Source: Olsenella sp. An290
GTDB taxonomy: Bacteria > Actinomycetota > Coriobacteriia > Coriobacteriales > Atopobiaceae
Length of the DNA: 64,000 nucleotides
Assembly: GCF_002159535.1 (NCBI RefSeq)
Contig: NZ_NFIU01000010.1
Span: 1 to 64,000, forward strand
Direction of reading: 5' to 3'
Under the pieces are notes generated by a model. That model was not told where the DNA came from and ran no database searches. It was given only the letters and a program-made list of their open reading frames with translations. Shown piece by piece: positions 109 to 8,059 of the stretch. The first letter of the stretch is position 1. Each line of letters opens with the position of its first letter. The position numbers and the translations under genes are program-made.

Positions 109-549
109 ATGCTGCTCCTGCTCCTGGCCCAGTCTCTCGCCGCGGGCGGCGCGGCGGCCCCCTCGTGGGGCGCGCTCGGCCCGGTCGGAGGCTTCCTCCT
201 GCTCTGGGACATGGCGGTCCTCTGGTACCACCTCGTCTACCTCGCCAGCTACAGACTCGGCCTCTGGGACGAGGGTAGGGAGGGAGGGCTGCGGTTCGAG
301 GTTTGGGGCGGCCCGCTGTTCGTGGCCCTGGCCACCACGGCGCGGCTGCTGTGGCTCGTCATGAAGTACGTCGCCGCCCCCATGCTCCCGTTCCTCCTCG
401 CCGCGACCTTCAGGCAGACCACGAGCATCGGGAGCGCGCCGGTCGACCTGCTGTGCATGGCGGTCCTGATCTACCCCGCCGCCGTGCTCCTCGCTTACGC
501 GGCGAAAGCCCTCGTCGCCCGCTCCAGGGGAGCTGCGCGGAAGGCATGA
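109..549 (+). CDS. Small membrane protein, element-borne, unknown function
   Basis: A 146-residue hydrophobic protein. I see an N-terminal Leu-rich segment, a second segment around the GGFLLLWDMAVLW stretch, one around residues 65-95 and a C-terminal one around 112-133, so about three to four membrane spans, with a basic C-terminal tail. The start at 109 is chosen because GGAGG lies 11 bases upstream; a longer frame back to position 13 would put the 23-bp repeats into coding sequence. Its stop overlaps the next gene's ATG, so the two are translationally coupled. I do not recognise the family; a partner that helps export or anchor the next protein is a guess from position. Confidence 0.65.
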   Translation: MLLLLLAQSLAAGGAAAPSWGALGPVGGFLLLWDMAVLWYHLVYLASYRLGLWDEGREGGLRFEVWGGPLFVALATTARLLWLVMKYVAAPMLPFLLAATFRQTTSIGSAPVDLLCMAVLIYPAAVLLAYAAKALVARSRGAARKA

Positions 550-1676
550 TGAAGGACAAGGACTATAAAAACATGGATGAGACGAGGATGGACGAGACCG
601 AGGTCCTGAACAGGCCGGAGGACGCCGGTGTCGGCGGCGGGCCTAAGCCGGGAGGCAAGACGCCCAAGGTCGTGGTGCGCCCGAGGGACAAGGCCCAGAG
701 GGACATTCTTGCCGCCGTCGCGAAGGCGCGCGAGACGGGAGCCGTCTCCCCCGAGCTGTCGGACGGGGACGTCGCGGGCATCGTGACGCCCGTCATCGAC
801 GCCCTCTACGACGCCTACGAGGAGGACGGCACCGCCCCGACCCGCGATGCGTTCGCCGAGCGCTGCGTGAGCGAGGACGTCGGCAACGTCGTGCTCACCA
901 TGGGGAGCGACCCGTTCGTGGCGAGGCGTCCGGGGCGCAGGGCCGTGGCGGCCATATGCGCGGGGTGCGCCCTCGCGCTCGCGGTGGCCTGCGGCGGCGT
1001 CGCGCTCTCCCTCTCACCTGGCGGCGACCCATCCGGCGGCGAGGCGGAGGGGGCTCCGGGCGCGGCCGTCGCGGACGGCGGCGTGGACACCGAGGCCGTC
1101 GAGGAGGCGGCCGAGGAGGCATCCCGAGCCGAGTCCGCCGCCCAGACCGGTCAGGACGGAGGCTCCGTGACCTCCACCGGAGGTGCCGCGTCCCCGTCCG
1201 GCGGCTCCACCTCGTCGTCCTCCGGCAGCAGCTCCTCCATCAGCTCGGCTGGCTCGACCGGCGGCTCCTCCTCGACCTCTAGCAGCTCAAGCGGCTCCGG
1301 GTCGTCCTCCTCTTCCTCCGCCACGCACACCCACAACTGGGTCGCGCAGACCACGACCGTGCATCACGACGCGGTGTATAAGACCGTGCACCATGACGCG
1401 ACCTACACGACGGTCCATCACGACGCGGTGACGGAGGACCGAACCATCTGCAACAACTGCGGGGCGGACATAACCGGCAACGTCGATGCCCACATGAAGG
1501 CGAACATCCTGAACGGGTGTGGGTCCTACAGCATCAAGACCGTCGTCGTCCAGGCCGCGTGGGACGAGCAGGTACTTGCTAGCGCCGCTTGGGACGAGCA
1601 GGTCCTCGTGAGCGCCGCGTGGGACGAGACCGTGACCACCGGCTACAAGTGCTCCGAGTGCGGCGCGACGAAGTAG
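546..1676 (+). CDS. Membrane-anchored surface protein with Ser-rich stalk and HHDA/AAWDE repeat domain
   Basis: A 376-residue protein. Residues 1-128 are hydrophilic and probably cytoplasmic; 129-150 form one transmembrane segment; about 155-260 are a low-complexity Glu/Ala then Ser/Gly/Thr stalk. From 261 comes a repeat domain: three 9-residue VHHDA units (272-298), a Cys pair (C302, C305), a single Cys near 325, three 10-residue AAWDE units (337-366) and a final Cys pair (C369, C372). The Cys pairs resemble a split zinc ribbon and the HHD units could bind metal; both are inference. Similar C-terminal modules occur at the end of surface proteins in Coriobacteriia and some Bacillota. ATG 546 overlaps the preceding stop; ATG 549 is an alternative. 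Confidence 0.75.
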   Translation: MMKDKDYKNMDETRMDETEVLNRPEDAGVGGGPKPGGKTPKVVVRPRDKAQRDILAAVAKARETGAVSPELSDGDVAGIVTPVIDALYDAYEEDGTAPTRDAFAERCVSEDVGNVVLTMGSDPFVARRPGRRAVAAICAGCALALAVACGGVALSLSPGGDPSGGEAEGAPGAAVADGGVDTEAVEEAAEEASRAESAAQTGQDGGSVTSTGGAASPSGGSTSSSSGSSSSISSAGSTGGSSSTSSSSSGSGSSSSSSATHTHNWVAQTTTVHHDAVYKTVHHDATYTTVHHDAVTEDRTICNNCGADITGNVDAHMKANILNGCGSYSIKTVVVQAAWDEQVLASAAWDEQVLVSAAWDETVTTGYKCSECGATK

Positions 1677-2094: not shown

Positions 2095-2505
2095 CTACCC
2101 CTCGTCGTCGCCTAGGTCGAGCGGCTCAACGTCTATGATGACATGATGCCGCCTCGCTTCGTCCCTGAGCGAGATGAGCGCGGACATCATCCTGAGGGTC
2201 GCGTCGCGCTGAAGCTCGAGGGCCCGGTCCAGCGCCCTTCGGTCGTAGCCTTCCGCCCCGCGAGAGTTCAGTGCGTGGGCGATCTGGTTCAGGTTGACCC
2301 CCTGCCTGTGAACCTCGAGCCACGCGCGGTGCAGGCGCTTGAAGTCGATCACGACGATATTCAAATCGTCGGAGTAGATGAGGGCGTCACGGACGAGGTC
2401 GCTGACGCGAATTCCGCATTTCCGCGCCTTCCGCCTGAGCTCCTCCCGCTCCCTCTCCGTGACGTACACCTTGATCTGCTTGTTCCGGACCCTGCTCTCG
2501 CTCAT
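2095..2505 (-). CDS. mobC: MobC-like plasmid mobilization (relaxosome) protein
   Basis: A 136-residue protein. Residues 1-45 have a basic ribbon-helix-helix pattern (IKVYVTEREREELRRKARKCG, then VSDLVRDAL). The second half has the GVNLNQIAHALN signature typical of bacterial mobilization proteins (MobC family), followed by a helical tail. Such proteins bind oriT DNA and help a relaxase nick it. The start at 2505 follows a GGGAGGT site; an upstream in-frame extension is rejected because it reads through non-conserved basic sequence. The expected relaxase gene does not follow. The inverted repeats just upstream (2684-2836) are where an oriT would be expected. Confidence 0.8.
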   Translation of the reverse strand: MSESRVRNKQIKVYVTEREREELRRKARKCGIRVSDLVRDALIYSDDLNIVVIDFKRLHRAWLEVHRQGVNLNQIAHALNSRGAEGYDRRALDRALELQRDATLRMMSALISLRDEARRHHVIIDVEPLDLGDDEG

Positions 2506-3059: not shown

Positions 3060-4319
3060 CTATGCTGACTCGTCACCATTGCTCAGCATGATTCGGTCCA
3101 TAGCTTCCATGCCTTCTCGCTTACTGTCAGCAAGGGCGTCCGCGTACACGTTGAGCGTCATGGCCGCATTGCTGTGGCCGAGAATGGAGCTCACGGTTTT
3201 CACGTCCAGGTTCCCCGATGTGGAGGAGATCGCCAAGGTCGCGAAGGTGTGCCTCAGGTCGTGGAAGCGAGGTGGGACCCCTTGCGTCCCGACGAGCCCC
3301 ACCGCCCTCGCCAGGGCATGCCACTCGTGACCAAGGACCTGCGGGCTGTACCACGTTCCGTTGATTGGTGAGCCAATCACAAACAGGGAGTCATCCCAGT
3401 CCATTCCAAACTCCTCCCTGTCCGCAATCATTGCTTGCCTGCGCTCCGTAAGAACCAGGAGGAGTCCCTCCCCAAACGGCACGTTTCTCAGGGAGCTCTC
3501 CGTCTTGGGGGAGCTGAGCACATACCTGCCCGCAGAGCGCGAAAGAGAGTGGCTGACCCGGATGCTATGCCCCTCAAGATCGACATCGCTCCACCGCAAC
3601 GCGCATATCTCCCCCTGACGCATTCCGGTCGACAGGGCGATGCGGACTCCGACCGCAAGGGGAGACGGGCCAAATCCCACGAGGGCCCGATTGAGCCTTG
3701 CTACCTCCTGGGCGCTTAGGGCGTTGACGGGCTTCGCCCTTCGCCTGGGGGCGTCAACCCTATCGAAAGGGTTGAGAATCAGGTCCCCCATTTTGCAGGC
3801 ATACGTGAAGACCTGCTTCGCGAACACGTGGATGTGAGAGAGCGTCGTGCCGCTGAGGCCATCGGCGGCCATCCCCTGCTCCCAGGCGACGATCAGCTTT
3901 GGGGTGACGTCGCGCAGCCTCGTATCGCCGATCTCGGTTCCGCGTATCTTGGAGATGTGGGAGCGGTATCCCCTTATCGTCACCGGACGGACCGCCCGAG
4001 AGAGCTCCTTGCGCATGACGTACAGCTCAGCATACTCGACGAGGGAGGTATCGCACGACGCCTCCTCCAGGCGTGAGCGCTCCTCCTCGGACGCGACCAG
4101 CTCGTCCCTCCACCGGCGAAGGGCCGTCTCGGCGCTCGCCTTGCCCCGGTTGTCGGGCGTGACCTCGCCCGTCTCCTCGTCGACCCTGTCCGGGTAGCAC
4201 CGGACGCCGGTGGTCTTAGTGAGCCGATGCTGCCTCCCGTCCTCGCCCTGCCAGTTGACCACCGCGCGCCACTTGCCGCCGTGCTTCGACACAAAGCCCT
4301 GGGTGTATGCCCTCCGCAT
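3060..4319 (-). CDS. int: Tyrosine recombinase / phage-type integrase
   Basis: 419 residues, the usual length for an integrase with an N-terminal arm-binding domain (about 1-80), a SAM-like core-binding domain (about 90-190) and a C-terminal catalytic domain (about 200-410). The catalytic set is complete: R234 in TGMRQGE, K272 in SPKTESS, H353 and R356 in HDLRH, H382 in LGHS and the nucleophile Y392 in NVYADAL. The ATG at 4319 is preceded by GGGAGG at six bases. The gene lies 172 bases inside the tRNA-Met fragment at 4492-4536, which fits an integrase catalysing site-specific recombination into tRNA-Met. No excisionase gene is evident nearby. Confidence 0.92.
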   Translation of the reverse strand: MRRAYTQGFVSKHGGKWRAVVNWQGEDGRQHRLTKTTGVRCYPDRVDEETGEVTPDNRGKASAETALRRWRDELVASEEERSRLEEASCDTSLVEYAELYVMRKELSRAVRPVTIRGYRSHISKIRGTEIGDTRLRDVTPKLIVAWEQGMAADGLSGTTLSHIHVFAKQVFTYACKMGDLILNPFDRVDAPRRRAKPVNALSAQEVARLNRALVGFGPSPLAVGVRIALSTGMRQGEICALRWSDVDLEGHSIRVSHSLSRSAGRYVLSSPKTESSLRNVPFGEGLLLVLTERRQAMIADREEFGMDWDDSLFVIGSPINGTWYSPQVLGHEWHALARAVGLVGTQGVPPRFHDLRHTFATLAISSTSGNLDVKTVSSILGHSNAAMTLNVYADALADSKREGMEAMDRIMLSNGDESA

Positions 4320-4491
4320 CGTTTGCCTCCCGCTGGTACTAGACGGGTCCTAAACCGGTACTACCAACGTTAGCGGGAGCGAGACGCCGGCCGACGGCCT
4401 TGCCCGACCCTGCCGGATTCTGCCTGCTCAGGGGGACAAACGGTGCCTGCCCTGCCAAGGCGTGCCGGAGGCGTTTGGGCTGGATGGGCCT

Positions 4492-4536
<45 letters not shown>

Positions 4537-4545
4537 TAAACTTGC

Positions 4546-4580
4546 AGCCCGGAGGCTTAACGGCCTTCGGGCTTTTTCTT
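4546..4580 (+). terminator. Rho-independent terminator of the original tRNA-Met gene
   Basis: An 11-bp stem 4546-4556/4563-4573 (AGCCCGGAGGC, one G-T wobble), six-base loop, followed by a T-run. It begins 10 bases after the CCA end of the tRNA fragment, so it was probably the native tRNA terminator before integration. Confidence 0.85.
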
Positions 4581-5074: not shown

Positions 5075-6154
5075 ATGGGCGCGCAACCGGCTGGTGGGCT
5101 TAGGCGTCGGTGGGTCGTCGTGGCCGTTGTGCTGTGCGCGCTTGTGGTGGTGGCCGCCGCGTTTGCCCAGCGGGTCCGTCGGGACGCGCTCTCCGGCATG
5201 TCCGGTGGGGCCGCGGCCGAGGAGCGGCCCGCCGACCCCGAGGCCGACGCCCCCGCCGTGCTTGGCGCCCCTGCCAGTCCCGACCCCGCCACCGCTCCCA
5301 CCACCCTCTCCGACCTCGACCTCTCCGCGATTCCCGCCGCAGCTGAGCCCACGTCCTTCTCGCTCGCGGACGGGGACGCGACGCCCGTTGACCCCGCGTC
5401 CTCCCTGTGCGCCGCCATCCAGGATGCGGAGCGCCTCGGCAGTCTGAGCCTGCTGCTGCTCGACTGCGGGACGGGCGCGGGCGTCGCCTACGGGACGGAC
5501 ACCACGGTCTACTCCGCGAGCACCTTCAAGGCCGTCTACGCCGCCTACGTCTGCTCGGAGCTCATCGAGTCCGGGCAGGTCACGCGGGAGACGATCTGCC
5601 CCGTTCTGGAGGGGGACGAGTACGACGGCACCTATGGGGTCCCGGGGCGCTCCTACTATCTGGGCACGCTGCTCGAGGCGCTCATCACCGAGTCGGACAA
5701 CGACGCCTTTCGCATCCTCCACGTAAACCTCGACCGGCTGGGCTATACGAGCTGGATGCTCGAGCGCTTTGGCGAGGAGGTCTTTGAGCCCGCGAGCTAC
5801 TACCAGTTCGTGAGCGCGCGCACCATGGCGCAGGCCTGGTCGTTTGTCGCGGACTATCTCGAGAGCGGGACGGAGACCGCCGCGTGGCTCGACTCGCTGC
5901 TCTCGCAGACGGGCACCTCCTTCATCCGCTCCGCGCTCGCGGACACGGGCGCCCAGGTCCGCAACAAGGCGGGCTGGTACGCGAACGACCCCACCTACAA
6001 CTCGACCTCGGACGTCGGGCTCGTGGAGCTCGACGGGTCGAGCTACCTCGTGGTGGCCCTCTCGGACATGCCCGCCTGCTCACAGAGCGAGCAGGCGCTC
6101 GAGGGCGTCATCCGTGCGCTCTTTGAGGCGCTCCCCGCATCCGACGCGAGCTAG
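5075..6154 (+). CDS. Membrane-anchored serine hydrolase, class A beta-lactamase-like
   Basis: 359 residues. Residues 10-31 form a membrane segment or signal anchor, about 35-105 are an Ala/Pro/Asp-rich linker and the rest is a beta-lactamase/transpeptidase-like fold. The three active-site elements are visible: S149-T-F-K152 (SxxK), S207-D208-N209 (SDN) and K298-A-G (KTG box). Such proteins act outside the membrane on beta-lactams or peptidoglycan peptides. The variant KAG box and the lack of an obvious omega-loop Glu signature make a cell-wall hydrolase as likely as a resistance enzyme. The ATG is preceded by GGGGAGG at seven bases. It is alone, between the 19-bp array and the exporter gene. 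Confidence 0.8.
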   Translation: MGAQPAGGLRRRWVVVAVVLCALVVVAAAFAQRVRRDALSGMSGGAAAEERPADPEADAPAVLGAPASPDPATAPTTLSDLDLSAIPAAAEPTSFSLADGDATPVDPASSLCAAIQDAERLGSLSLLLLDCGTGAGVAYGTDTTVYSASTFKAVYAAYVCSELIESGQVTRETICPVLEGDEYDGTYGVPGRSYYLGTLLEALITESDNDAFRILHVNLDRLGYTSWMLERFGEEVFEPASYYQFVSARTMAQAWSFVADYLESGTETAAWLDSLLSQTGTSFIRSALADTGAQVRNKAGWYANDPTYNSTSDVGLVELDGSSYLVVALSDMPACSQSEQALEGVIRALFEALPASDAS

Positions 6155-6298: not shown

Positions 6299-8059
6299 AT
6301 GGACAGCACCGGCATCGCGCGCGGCGGGCAGCGAGCGGCCAGGGGAGACGACCCGGGCATCGGGCGGCCCGCTCCGGGCTCGGCCACGGAGCAGGACGCC
6401 GCGTGCACGAAGACCGCCGCGGAGCAGGACGCCGCCCCCGGAAAGGCCCCTCTCGAGAAGGACGCCGCCCCCGAGCGCTTCCTCATCCTGCCCGTCGTGA
6501 TTCTCATCCTTGCGCAGATGGGCGTCACGGGGGACAACGGCGCCCTCTCGCTTGCCGCCGAGGAGCTCACCCGGACCCTCGGCGCCACGACGTCCGACAT
6601 TCAGCTCGCCAACATGGTCTACCCGCTCATGGGAGGCGCCTTCATGATCGCCGACGGCCTTGTCGGGACCATCGTCGGCTGGGGGCGGACCTTCCGGATC
6701 GGGGCGGCGCTGTGTGCGCTCGGCGAGGTCGCGCTTGCCTTCGCGCCCAACATGGCCGTGGTCATCTGGGTCGCGCGCGTGCTCGTGGGGCTGGGGGCGA
6801 GCTTCCTCGTGCCGTCGCTCCTGGGGATCGTTCCGCCGCTCTACCACGGGACCAACCGAGCCGTTGCGTTTGGCTGCCTCGGCGCCGCCTCGGGGCTCTC
6901 CGCGCTCCTACCGCTCGTTCTGGGCGAGGTCATGGAGCATGGCGGCCTGCGCGCGACGTTTCTCTCCCTCGCGGCGTACTTTCTCGTGGTGCTCGCGCTC
7001 TCCCTGCGCCTCCCGCGCCTCGCGCGTCCCGCCGAGCGGCTCGGGTTCGACGGTCTCGGCGTGGCGCTTTCCGCCGCCGGCCTGTCCCTGTTCCTCGCAG
7101 GCCTCTCGAGCATCTCCTCGTGGGGCCTGGTCAGGCCCCTTGCGGGCTGCCCCTTCACGGTCCTTGGAATCTCGCCCGCGCTTCCCCTGGCCGCCGCGGT
7201 GCTCGTCGTCCTGGCGGTTCTTGTCCGTGTCGAGAAGAACGTCGAGGAGCACAAGGGGATTGCCCTGCTGCCGCAGTCCCTCCTTCGGACGCCGCAGGTC
7301 CTCGCGGGCCTTGCGGCCTGCGCGCTCACGTTCTTCTTCATGGGCGCCCAGTCCATTCTCATGGCTCCCTACCTGCAGCTCGTTGCCGGATGGTCGCCGG
7401 TTCAGGTGGGCGTCATCTCCATCGTGACGGGCCTTCCCACCTTTGCGCTCGCGCTGGGCATTCCCAGGCTCGCCCCGCGCGCCAACCCGCGCCATGTCAT
7501 CCAGGTGGGGTATGTGGCCATGGCGGTGGCGCTGCTCGTCATGGCGCTCTCCGTCACCATCGAGGGGAGCAACGCGGTGGGCGTCTACGTGGGGGCGTTT
7601 CTCGCCGGCGTCGGGGCCGGCACGGTGTCGTCGCACGCGAGCAACGTCGTCGCGCTTGCCGTGAGCGACCGTGATGCGTCGCAGTCCGGTGGCATCCAGA
7701 GCACCATGCGCAACGTGGGGCAGGCGCTGGGCGTGGCGCTCCTGGGCGCCGTGCTCCTCCTGGGAATCAGCGGGGCCGTCCGCTCCGGCGCGGCGGCGGA
7801 CCGTGCGATTACCCCGCAGGTGGCCCGGCAGGTCTCCGAGCTCGCTGTCAATCTGGGCAGCGACGAGGAGTTCAGGGGGCAGCTGTCCGGCATCGAGATG
7901 ACCGATGCCGAGCGCAACGCCCTCGTGCGCATCCAGGCCCGTGCCCGCTTTGACGCGACGCGCACGGCCTACGGGGTCGGCGCTGTTGTCATCCTGCTCG
8001 GGCTGCTCACGACCCCGGCCATCCGCTGGGGTGACGAGAAGGGGGCCGCCCCCCTTTAG
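6299..8059 (+). CDS. MFS transporter, DHA2-like drug exporter
   Basis: 586 residues: a hydrophilic N-terminal extension of about 60 residues with EQDAA/EKDAAP-type repeats, then about 14 hydrophobic segments (from VVILILAQMGVTGDNG to VGAVVILLGLLTTP), the layout of DHA2-family proton-coupled multidrug exporters. The loop SLRLPRLARP and a long extracytoplasmic loop before the last helix are as expected. The ATG follows GGAGAGG at eight bases. The charged repetitive N-terminal tail is unusual and may be regulatory. The substrate cannot be told from sequence. It reads in the same direction as the Cys-rich small gene that follows. Confidence 0.85.
   Translation: MDSTGIARGGQRAARGDDPGIGRPAPGSATEQDAACTKTAAEQDAAPGKAPLEKDAAPERFLILPVVILILAQMGVTGDNGALSLAAEELTRTLGATTSDIQLANMVYPLMGGAFMIADGLVGTIVGWGRTFRIGAALCALGEVALAFAPNMAVVIWVARVLVGLGASFLVPSLLGIVPPLYHGTNRAVAFGCLGAASGLSALLPLVLGEVMEHGGLRATFLSLAAYFLVVLALSLRLPRLARPAERLGFDGLGVALSAAGLSLFLAGLSSISSWGLVRPLAGCPFTVLGISPALPLAAAVLVVLAVLVRVEKNVEEHKGIALLPQSLLRTPQVLAGLAACALTFFFMGAQSILMAPYLQLVAGWSPVQVGVISIVTGLPTFALALGIPRLAPRANPRHVIQVGYVAMAVALLVMALSVTIEGSNAVGVYVGAFLAGVGAGTVSSHASNVVALAVSDRDASQSGGIQSTMRNVGQALGVALLGAVLLLGISGAVRSGAAADRAITPQVARQVSELAVNLGSDEEFRGQLSGIEMTDAERNALVRIQARARFDATRTAYGVGAVVILLGLLTTPAIRWGDEKGAAPL

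Follow-up and report, generated by a model that had tools for sequence, protein, structure and literature searches.

Elongated surface proteins of Gram-positive bacteria that are built from repeats, and whose length follows from repeat number, are known from the periscope proteins and from the E-G5 rods of SasG and Aap, which consist of tandem domains that each fold by themselves (PMC9704523). The protein described here would resemble them in all three respects, its surface location and its length being predictions in this case. Unlike in the SasG and Aap rods, a single hairpin would span the whole rod, with units of 9–10 residues that pair with distant complementary units, and neither G5 nor E was matched in Pfam at E ≤ 1 by the protein or by the domain. 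Designed tryptophan-zipper hairpins are short peptides with cross-strand aromatic pairs and no protein core. The present domain shares with these the cross-strand pairs in a core-less hairpin, and differs from them in that its pairs are natural His-aromatic and His-Asp pairs, spread over many units of four module types. We consider it very likely that this C-terminal domain is a long antiparallel two-stranded β-ribbon of paired modules, the two arms of which are reverse-complementary to one another.

The gene lies at positions 546..1676 on the forward strand of the window (the whole stretch of 64,000 nucleotides of Olsenella sp. An290 DNA that was analyzed) and encodes a predicted surface protein of 376 or 375 amino acids, depending on whether the ATG at 546 or that at 549 is used. 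It is present as a single copy in its own genome, and is kept in Olsenella sp. An270 (L037) and in IMG/VR 2788500460. Re-reading of the open reading frame confirmed the repeats and cysteines listed in the first-pass annotation: three VHHDA units (at residues 272, 281 and 290, with a period of 9), three AAWDE units (at residues 337, 347 and 357, with a period of 10) and the pairs C302/C305 and C369/C372, all numbered from the ATG at 546. Cysteines are at residues 302, 305, 325, 369 and 372; C325 and an HTH tripeptide at residues 261–263 were both absent from that annotation, and both matter. Two different 5-mers occurring three times each were found in 0 of 100,000 shuffles of the domain. In periscope proteins the repeats are near-identical as DNA and expand and contract within a population; units within the window gene share only 48–74% (H units, the VHHDA type) and 63–83% (W units, the AAWDE type) DNA identity.

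Hydropathy analysis found one hydrophobic span at approximately residues 134–156 (945..1013, forward strand), with an Arg-rich sequence (RRPGRR) ahead of it. Among segments of 19 residues, the one that begins at residue 134 is the most hydrophobic, with a mean Kyte-Doolittle value of 2.29, and by the positive-inside rule the span would be oriented N-in/C-out. Downstream is a Ser/Gly/Thr-rich linker at residues 205–259 (56% Ser; 1158..1322, forward strand). The earlier proposal is supported in so far as it predicts a C-terminal domain displayed outside a single membrane span on a Ser-rich linker and carried on a mobile element, with the topology a prediction. Comparison with the An270 homologue gave a dN/dS of 0.29 for the domain, indicating purifying selection. 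Separately, the N-terminal part gave a dN/dS of 1.18 against the same An270 homologue (L134), making the ribbon domain, which is predicted to be exposed, the more constrained half of the protein.

In the window and in An270 alike, the gene lies within an integrated island, alongside genes for a tyrosine integrase and a NikA/MobC-like protein. The window starts inside the island and covers only its right part, in which the NikA/MobC-like mobilization accessory protein is encoded at 2095..2505 on the reverse strand (Pfam PF21983, E = 1.5e-13) and the integrase at 3060..4319, also on the reverse strand (PF00589, E = 2e-20). The right end is marked at 4492..4556 (forward strand) by a copy of the 3′ end of tRNA-Met, an att repeat with 95% identity to the An270 tRNA-Met 3′ end. 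In An270 the island runs for approximately 19.6 kb from the tRNA-Met 3′ end (L133 2766–2842) to a repeat of that end (L134 ~4310–4365), and its cargo also includes an MmeI-type restriction-modification protein, a DUF3644 protein and a transposase. Beside the NikA-like gene of the window, positions 2781–2836 form a perfect inverted repeat of 26 nt around a loop of 4 nt, a possible origin of transfer or terminator; a second inverted repeat, of 15 nt, is at 2691–2740. Next to the island, window positions 6486–8023 match L133 901–2438 in an orientation inverted relative to the att repeat, so that either the flanks have been rearranged or the island sits differently. A protein of the Beta-lactamase2 fold is encoded just outside the island at 5075–6154 (PF13354, E = 5e-17).

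No model in Pfam, NCBIfam or PHROG covers the domain, and a sequence search of the PDB gave no match up to E = 1. Homologues were found in 30 of 396 sampled genomes of the class and at 37 named loci, in Olsenella, Collinsella, Gordonibacter, Eggerthellaceae, Clostridium, Lachnospiraceae, relatives of Erysipelotrichales and others; more came from further orders and from IMG/VR contigs. Protein searches of plasmids gave no match, and among phages the window domain had none and the L051 domain one weak match (40%). The set of 59 related domains used below was drawn from Coriobacteriia, Clostridia, Erysipelotrichales and phage-like contigs. In 54 of 61 carrier proteins a hydrophobic segment lies N-terminal to the domain, which is nearly always at the extreme C-terminus; one carrier (L007) has CW_binding_2 repeats. 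The number of units differs between species.

AlphaFold2 predicted the window domain (the C-terminal 116 residues) as a long antiparallel two-stranded β-ribbon, with a pLDDT of 95.6 for the best model. This model is one hairpin, each arm of which has four strand segments, with the three VHHDA units on one strand and the three AAWDE units on the other. In domain numbering, the ascending arm 1 (1338..1451, forward strand; H units at 1359, 1386 and 1413) comprises strands 5–14, 17–23, 26–32 and 35–42, and the descending arm 2 (1527..1652, forward strand; W units at 1554, 1584 and 1614, pairing in reverse order with the H units) comprises strands 68–76, 79–86, 89–96 and 99–109. Between them lies the tip (1449..1520, forward strand), a finger-like loop with one helix (53–63). 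Arm 1 breaks at the Asp-Ala of its VHHDA units and arm 2 at the Ala-Ala of its AAWDE units; the antiparallel hairpin brings these breaks opposite each other. Two of the five models of the window domain exceeded a pLDDT of 93 and the other three reached 71–74, so the register was not reached by every model; for a homologue with mixed arms (L047, HHHKW/HGWWW) all five models had a pLDDT of 94–96, with five segments per arm. The pTM was approximately 0.5 for both, as expected of a long thin object. Residue pairs and distances given here were deduced from strand boundaries, register and covariation rather than from model coordinates.

Foldseek searches of the PDB with the window and L047 models, and of BFVD with the L047 model, returned nothing below E = 0.03, and VIA-align gave a Z of at most 3.0 (rmsd 9.6 over 77 residues); lack of a structural match does not prove a new fold. 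The nearest shapes in Foldseek were the stems of pore-forming toxins (aerolysin, lysenin, protective antigen), which are long two-stranded hairpins (best E 0.096, not significant). Unlike the ribbon domain, those stems line up in barrels, and neither repeats of this kind nor a finger at the tip are known to us from them; we take the resemblance as one of shape only.

Four module types were recognized in the homologues, H (xHHDA and variants), W (AWDE and variants), G (GHYE) and K (KWVVD). Reading from base to tip and back, the module order of arm 2 is the reverse complement of that of arm 1, with H matched to W and G to K. Under a fixed pattern grammar, exact reverse complementarity was found in 44 of 59 domains, against a mean of 6.1 and a maximum of 16 in 20,000 shuffles of arms between domains; swapping only arms of equal length raised the shuffled mean to 14.8 and the maximum to 26. 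The excess persisted when distinct pair types were counted (14 of 27 comply, versus 1.3 shuffled, maximum 9) and when one domain was taken per 45%-identity cluster (15 of 22, versus 1.8, maximum 6). Arm spans were also correlated among the cluster representatives (rho 0.84). A parallel pairing of the arms was rejected, as 0 of 18 mixed pair types were complementary in parallel order.

The rule holds over diverse arms, including HHHHH/WWWWW (L042), HHW/HWW (L051), HWW/HHW (L065), HGW/HKW (L048), HKW/HGW (L061), KWWW/HHHG (L097) and the mixed arms of L047 given above. Homologues with swapped arms, in which the W arm comes first, were also found (L007, L008, L031 and L004, the last with WWW/HHH). 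A looser first version of the module grammar had miscalled tip residues, and the grammar was then tuned one time; for L065, it is the final parse that puts a false H in the tip and the first-pass parse that does not. Of the 15 misses, many can be seen by eye to be failures of the pattern, and some are real degenerate units. The one clear real mismatch is HH/WWW in Olsenella An270 (L003/L037), with the same protein in L002, an IMG/VR contig, and this apparently reflects the loss of one 9-residue unit. L028 (which looks broken) and L075 (of the same type as L127, and split wrongly by the parser) were kept outside the statistics, and L073 looks truncated. The short frame of L028 (1429–1656) has GWWW then HH and no tip, and is probably a broken copy. 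In L053, two adjacent genes have opposite arm order, HHxHH/WWxWW (by eye) and GWWWWW/HHHHHK.

Seven domains found after the grammar was set all comply, with arms and tip assigned by hand and one module pattern widened by two letters. The best example, HWWHHG/KWWHHW, is from one of these, on a 394-kb IMG/VR contig (L129), where steps of 13, 10, 16, 9 and 5 residues face steps of 12, 9, 16, 10 and 6; throughout these later domains, paired steps are equal or one residue apart. Spacing is coupled in the complementary domains as well. H-H steps of 9 lie opposite W-W steps of 10 in 35 of the 37 step pairs, one of the other two being 11 facing 12, and insertions or deletions between modules are usually matched in the other arm (11:12, 7:8, 8:9, 17:17). 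Since a step of 9 faces one of 10, the W strand has one extra residue per unit, which is probably a bulge.

In the register read from the breaks in the arms, H13 faces D100 and H14 faces W99 (domain numbering), so that in an H:W pair the first His would be opposite Asp and the second His opposite Trp or Tyr. The first His of the H modules and the Asp of the W modules showed the strongest covariation of all column pairs. His-Asp was counted in 76 pairs, Asn-Thr in 8, and other non-His residues with Thr, Asn or Ser in approximately 10; Asn-Asp pairs in L127 and L130 are exceptions to this residue rule. Concordance was seen in 95 of 101 pairs, compared to a mean of 77.4 and a maximum of 91 in within-protein permutations (20,000; none reached 95). 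When covariation was ranked over all protein pairs, three predicted cross-strand pairs were in the top five; under the stricter within-protein permutation, His-Asp alone stands out clearly. This covarying pair is the one given by the modeled register, and it is the best evidence for the physical reality of the modeled pairing. The second His of the H units is invariant (101/101).

Arms that are reverse-complementary could in principle also pair in trans, by strand exchange between molecules on one cell or on neighboring cells, giving sequence-specific adhesion or recognition; the adjacent L053 genes of opposite arm order would suit such an arrangement. We regard it as unlikely, since all well-parsed domains have both arms in one chain around the tip loop, no clear one-arm protein was seen among the homologues collected, and the high-confidence structure predictions are of a hairpin within one chain. 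We are equally doubtful of a natural antiparallel pairing code, H with W and G with K, in which a module string specifies its partner string and which also acts between molecules or cells.

Pairing within one chain also bears on the histidines. The repeated HHD had been read as metal-binding, and the repeats are indeed dense in His (6 His in three HHD motifs), with CxxC pairs, typical metal ligands, nearby. It appears quite improbable that metal is chelated by these motifs all along the strand and that the domain serves to capture or sense a metal, be it zinc or another. Where the first His is replaced by Asn, Tyr, Trp, Glu or Gln, the facing Asp is replaced together with it by Thr, Asn or Ser, which fits cross-strand pairing. 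The invariant second His would face an aromatic residue, and relatives free of CxxC, with neither ligand set (L016, L091, L098), retain their arms. Strand pairing thus accounts for the HHD repeats better than metal does. Metal sites as such, also expected in the first-pass annotation, are probable: ligand patterns in the sequences point to probably two, one at the base (HxH with C369/C372) and one at the tip (C302/C305 with H316/C325).

At the base, the HTH (H261 and H263; 1326..1334, forward strand) and C369-x2-C372 (1650..1661, forward strand) would each supply half of the site. An HxH before arm 1 and a C(x1-2)C after arm 2 were both present in 45 domains and both absent in 9, with 3 off (Fisher’s exact test p = 6e-8); the three off cases resemble failures of the pattern or of the ORF end. 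In L004 and L005 the base is closed instead by two CxxCGG motifs, and in L128 one Cys lies close to either end, the two perhaps forming a disulfide. The tip, C302-x2-C305-x10-H316-x8-C325, matches the C2H2-type order of CxxC, helix with His and final His or Cys, and in the model the helix lies over H316. It is like a classical C2H2-type zinc finger in this order, and unlike one in being a loop that ends a long ribbon of a membrane-anchored protein and in having lost its ligands in some relatives. Against Pfam, the zinc-ribbon models PF13248, PF13240 and PF01096 matched the tip below cut-offs, with no C2H2 finger model among the matches.

Tip and base behave as separate sets. The tip CxxC and His, which are kept or lost together, are present without the base set in L031–L033 and L097, and the base set is present without the tip set in L066. 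Because the two sets are kept or lost separately, two independent sites at opposite ends are indicated. The two CxxC pairs do bracket the W repeats, and the first-pass annotation had them meet as a zinc clasp closing the domain; this is highly improbable, since in the model the pairs sit at opposite ends of the long ribbon and in homologues each set occurs without the other. The structure prediction that had been proposed as a check was confident and placed the cysteines far apart, as judged from the topology, and the clasp fails on it.

We give practically no weight to a low-complexity expansion without structural meaning, in which the two repeat types duplicate independently: tandem repeats can grow by slippage, and one unit was lost without compensation in the An270 homologue, but the coupling of arm composition, order, spacing and residues far beyond shuffles refutes it in the main, and the domain is under purifying selection.

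In the β-ribbon reading that we prefer, each VHHDA-type module would face one AWDE-type module and each GHYE-type module one KWVVD-type module. The base site, HxH with the terminal CxxC, probably closes the open end and would fix the ends of the hairpin beside the membrane linker, and at the far end a separate finger-like site (CxxC-H-C) would be formed on a variable loop with a helix; the metal is presumably zinc. The ribbon would then be a thin rod of approximately 10 nm, estimated from ~37 residues per arm. How many module pairs it has would determine its length, and the variable tip, whether or not it carries metal ligands, may be presented at a distance from the cell, where it could bind or make contact.

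The open-access literature gave no description of the motifs or of such a ribbon, the few text matches to AAWDE or VHHEA being in unrelated papers. The β-hairpin, the finger-like loop and the surface rod are known parts; as far as we found, the reverse-complementary module grammar is apparently undescribed. To our knowledge, no other protein family has one repeat order that reverse-complements another with matched spacing and residues. The analysis gives a name to a C-terminal domain that is widespread in gut bacteria and phage-like contigs and had no annotation. If the reading is right, it would provide a rule for reading, and perhaps for building, stable two-stranded protein rods from sequence, and would reveal a simple bacterial means to tune the reach of a surface protein. 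It would also raise the question of whether complementary arms recognize each other in trans.
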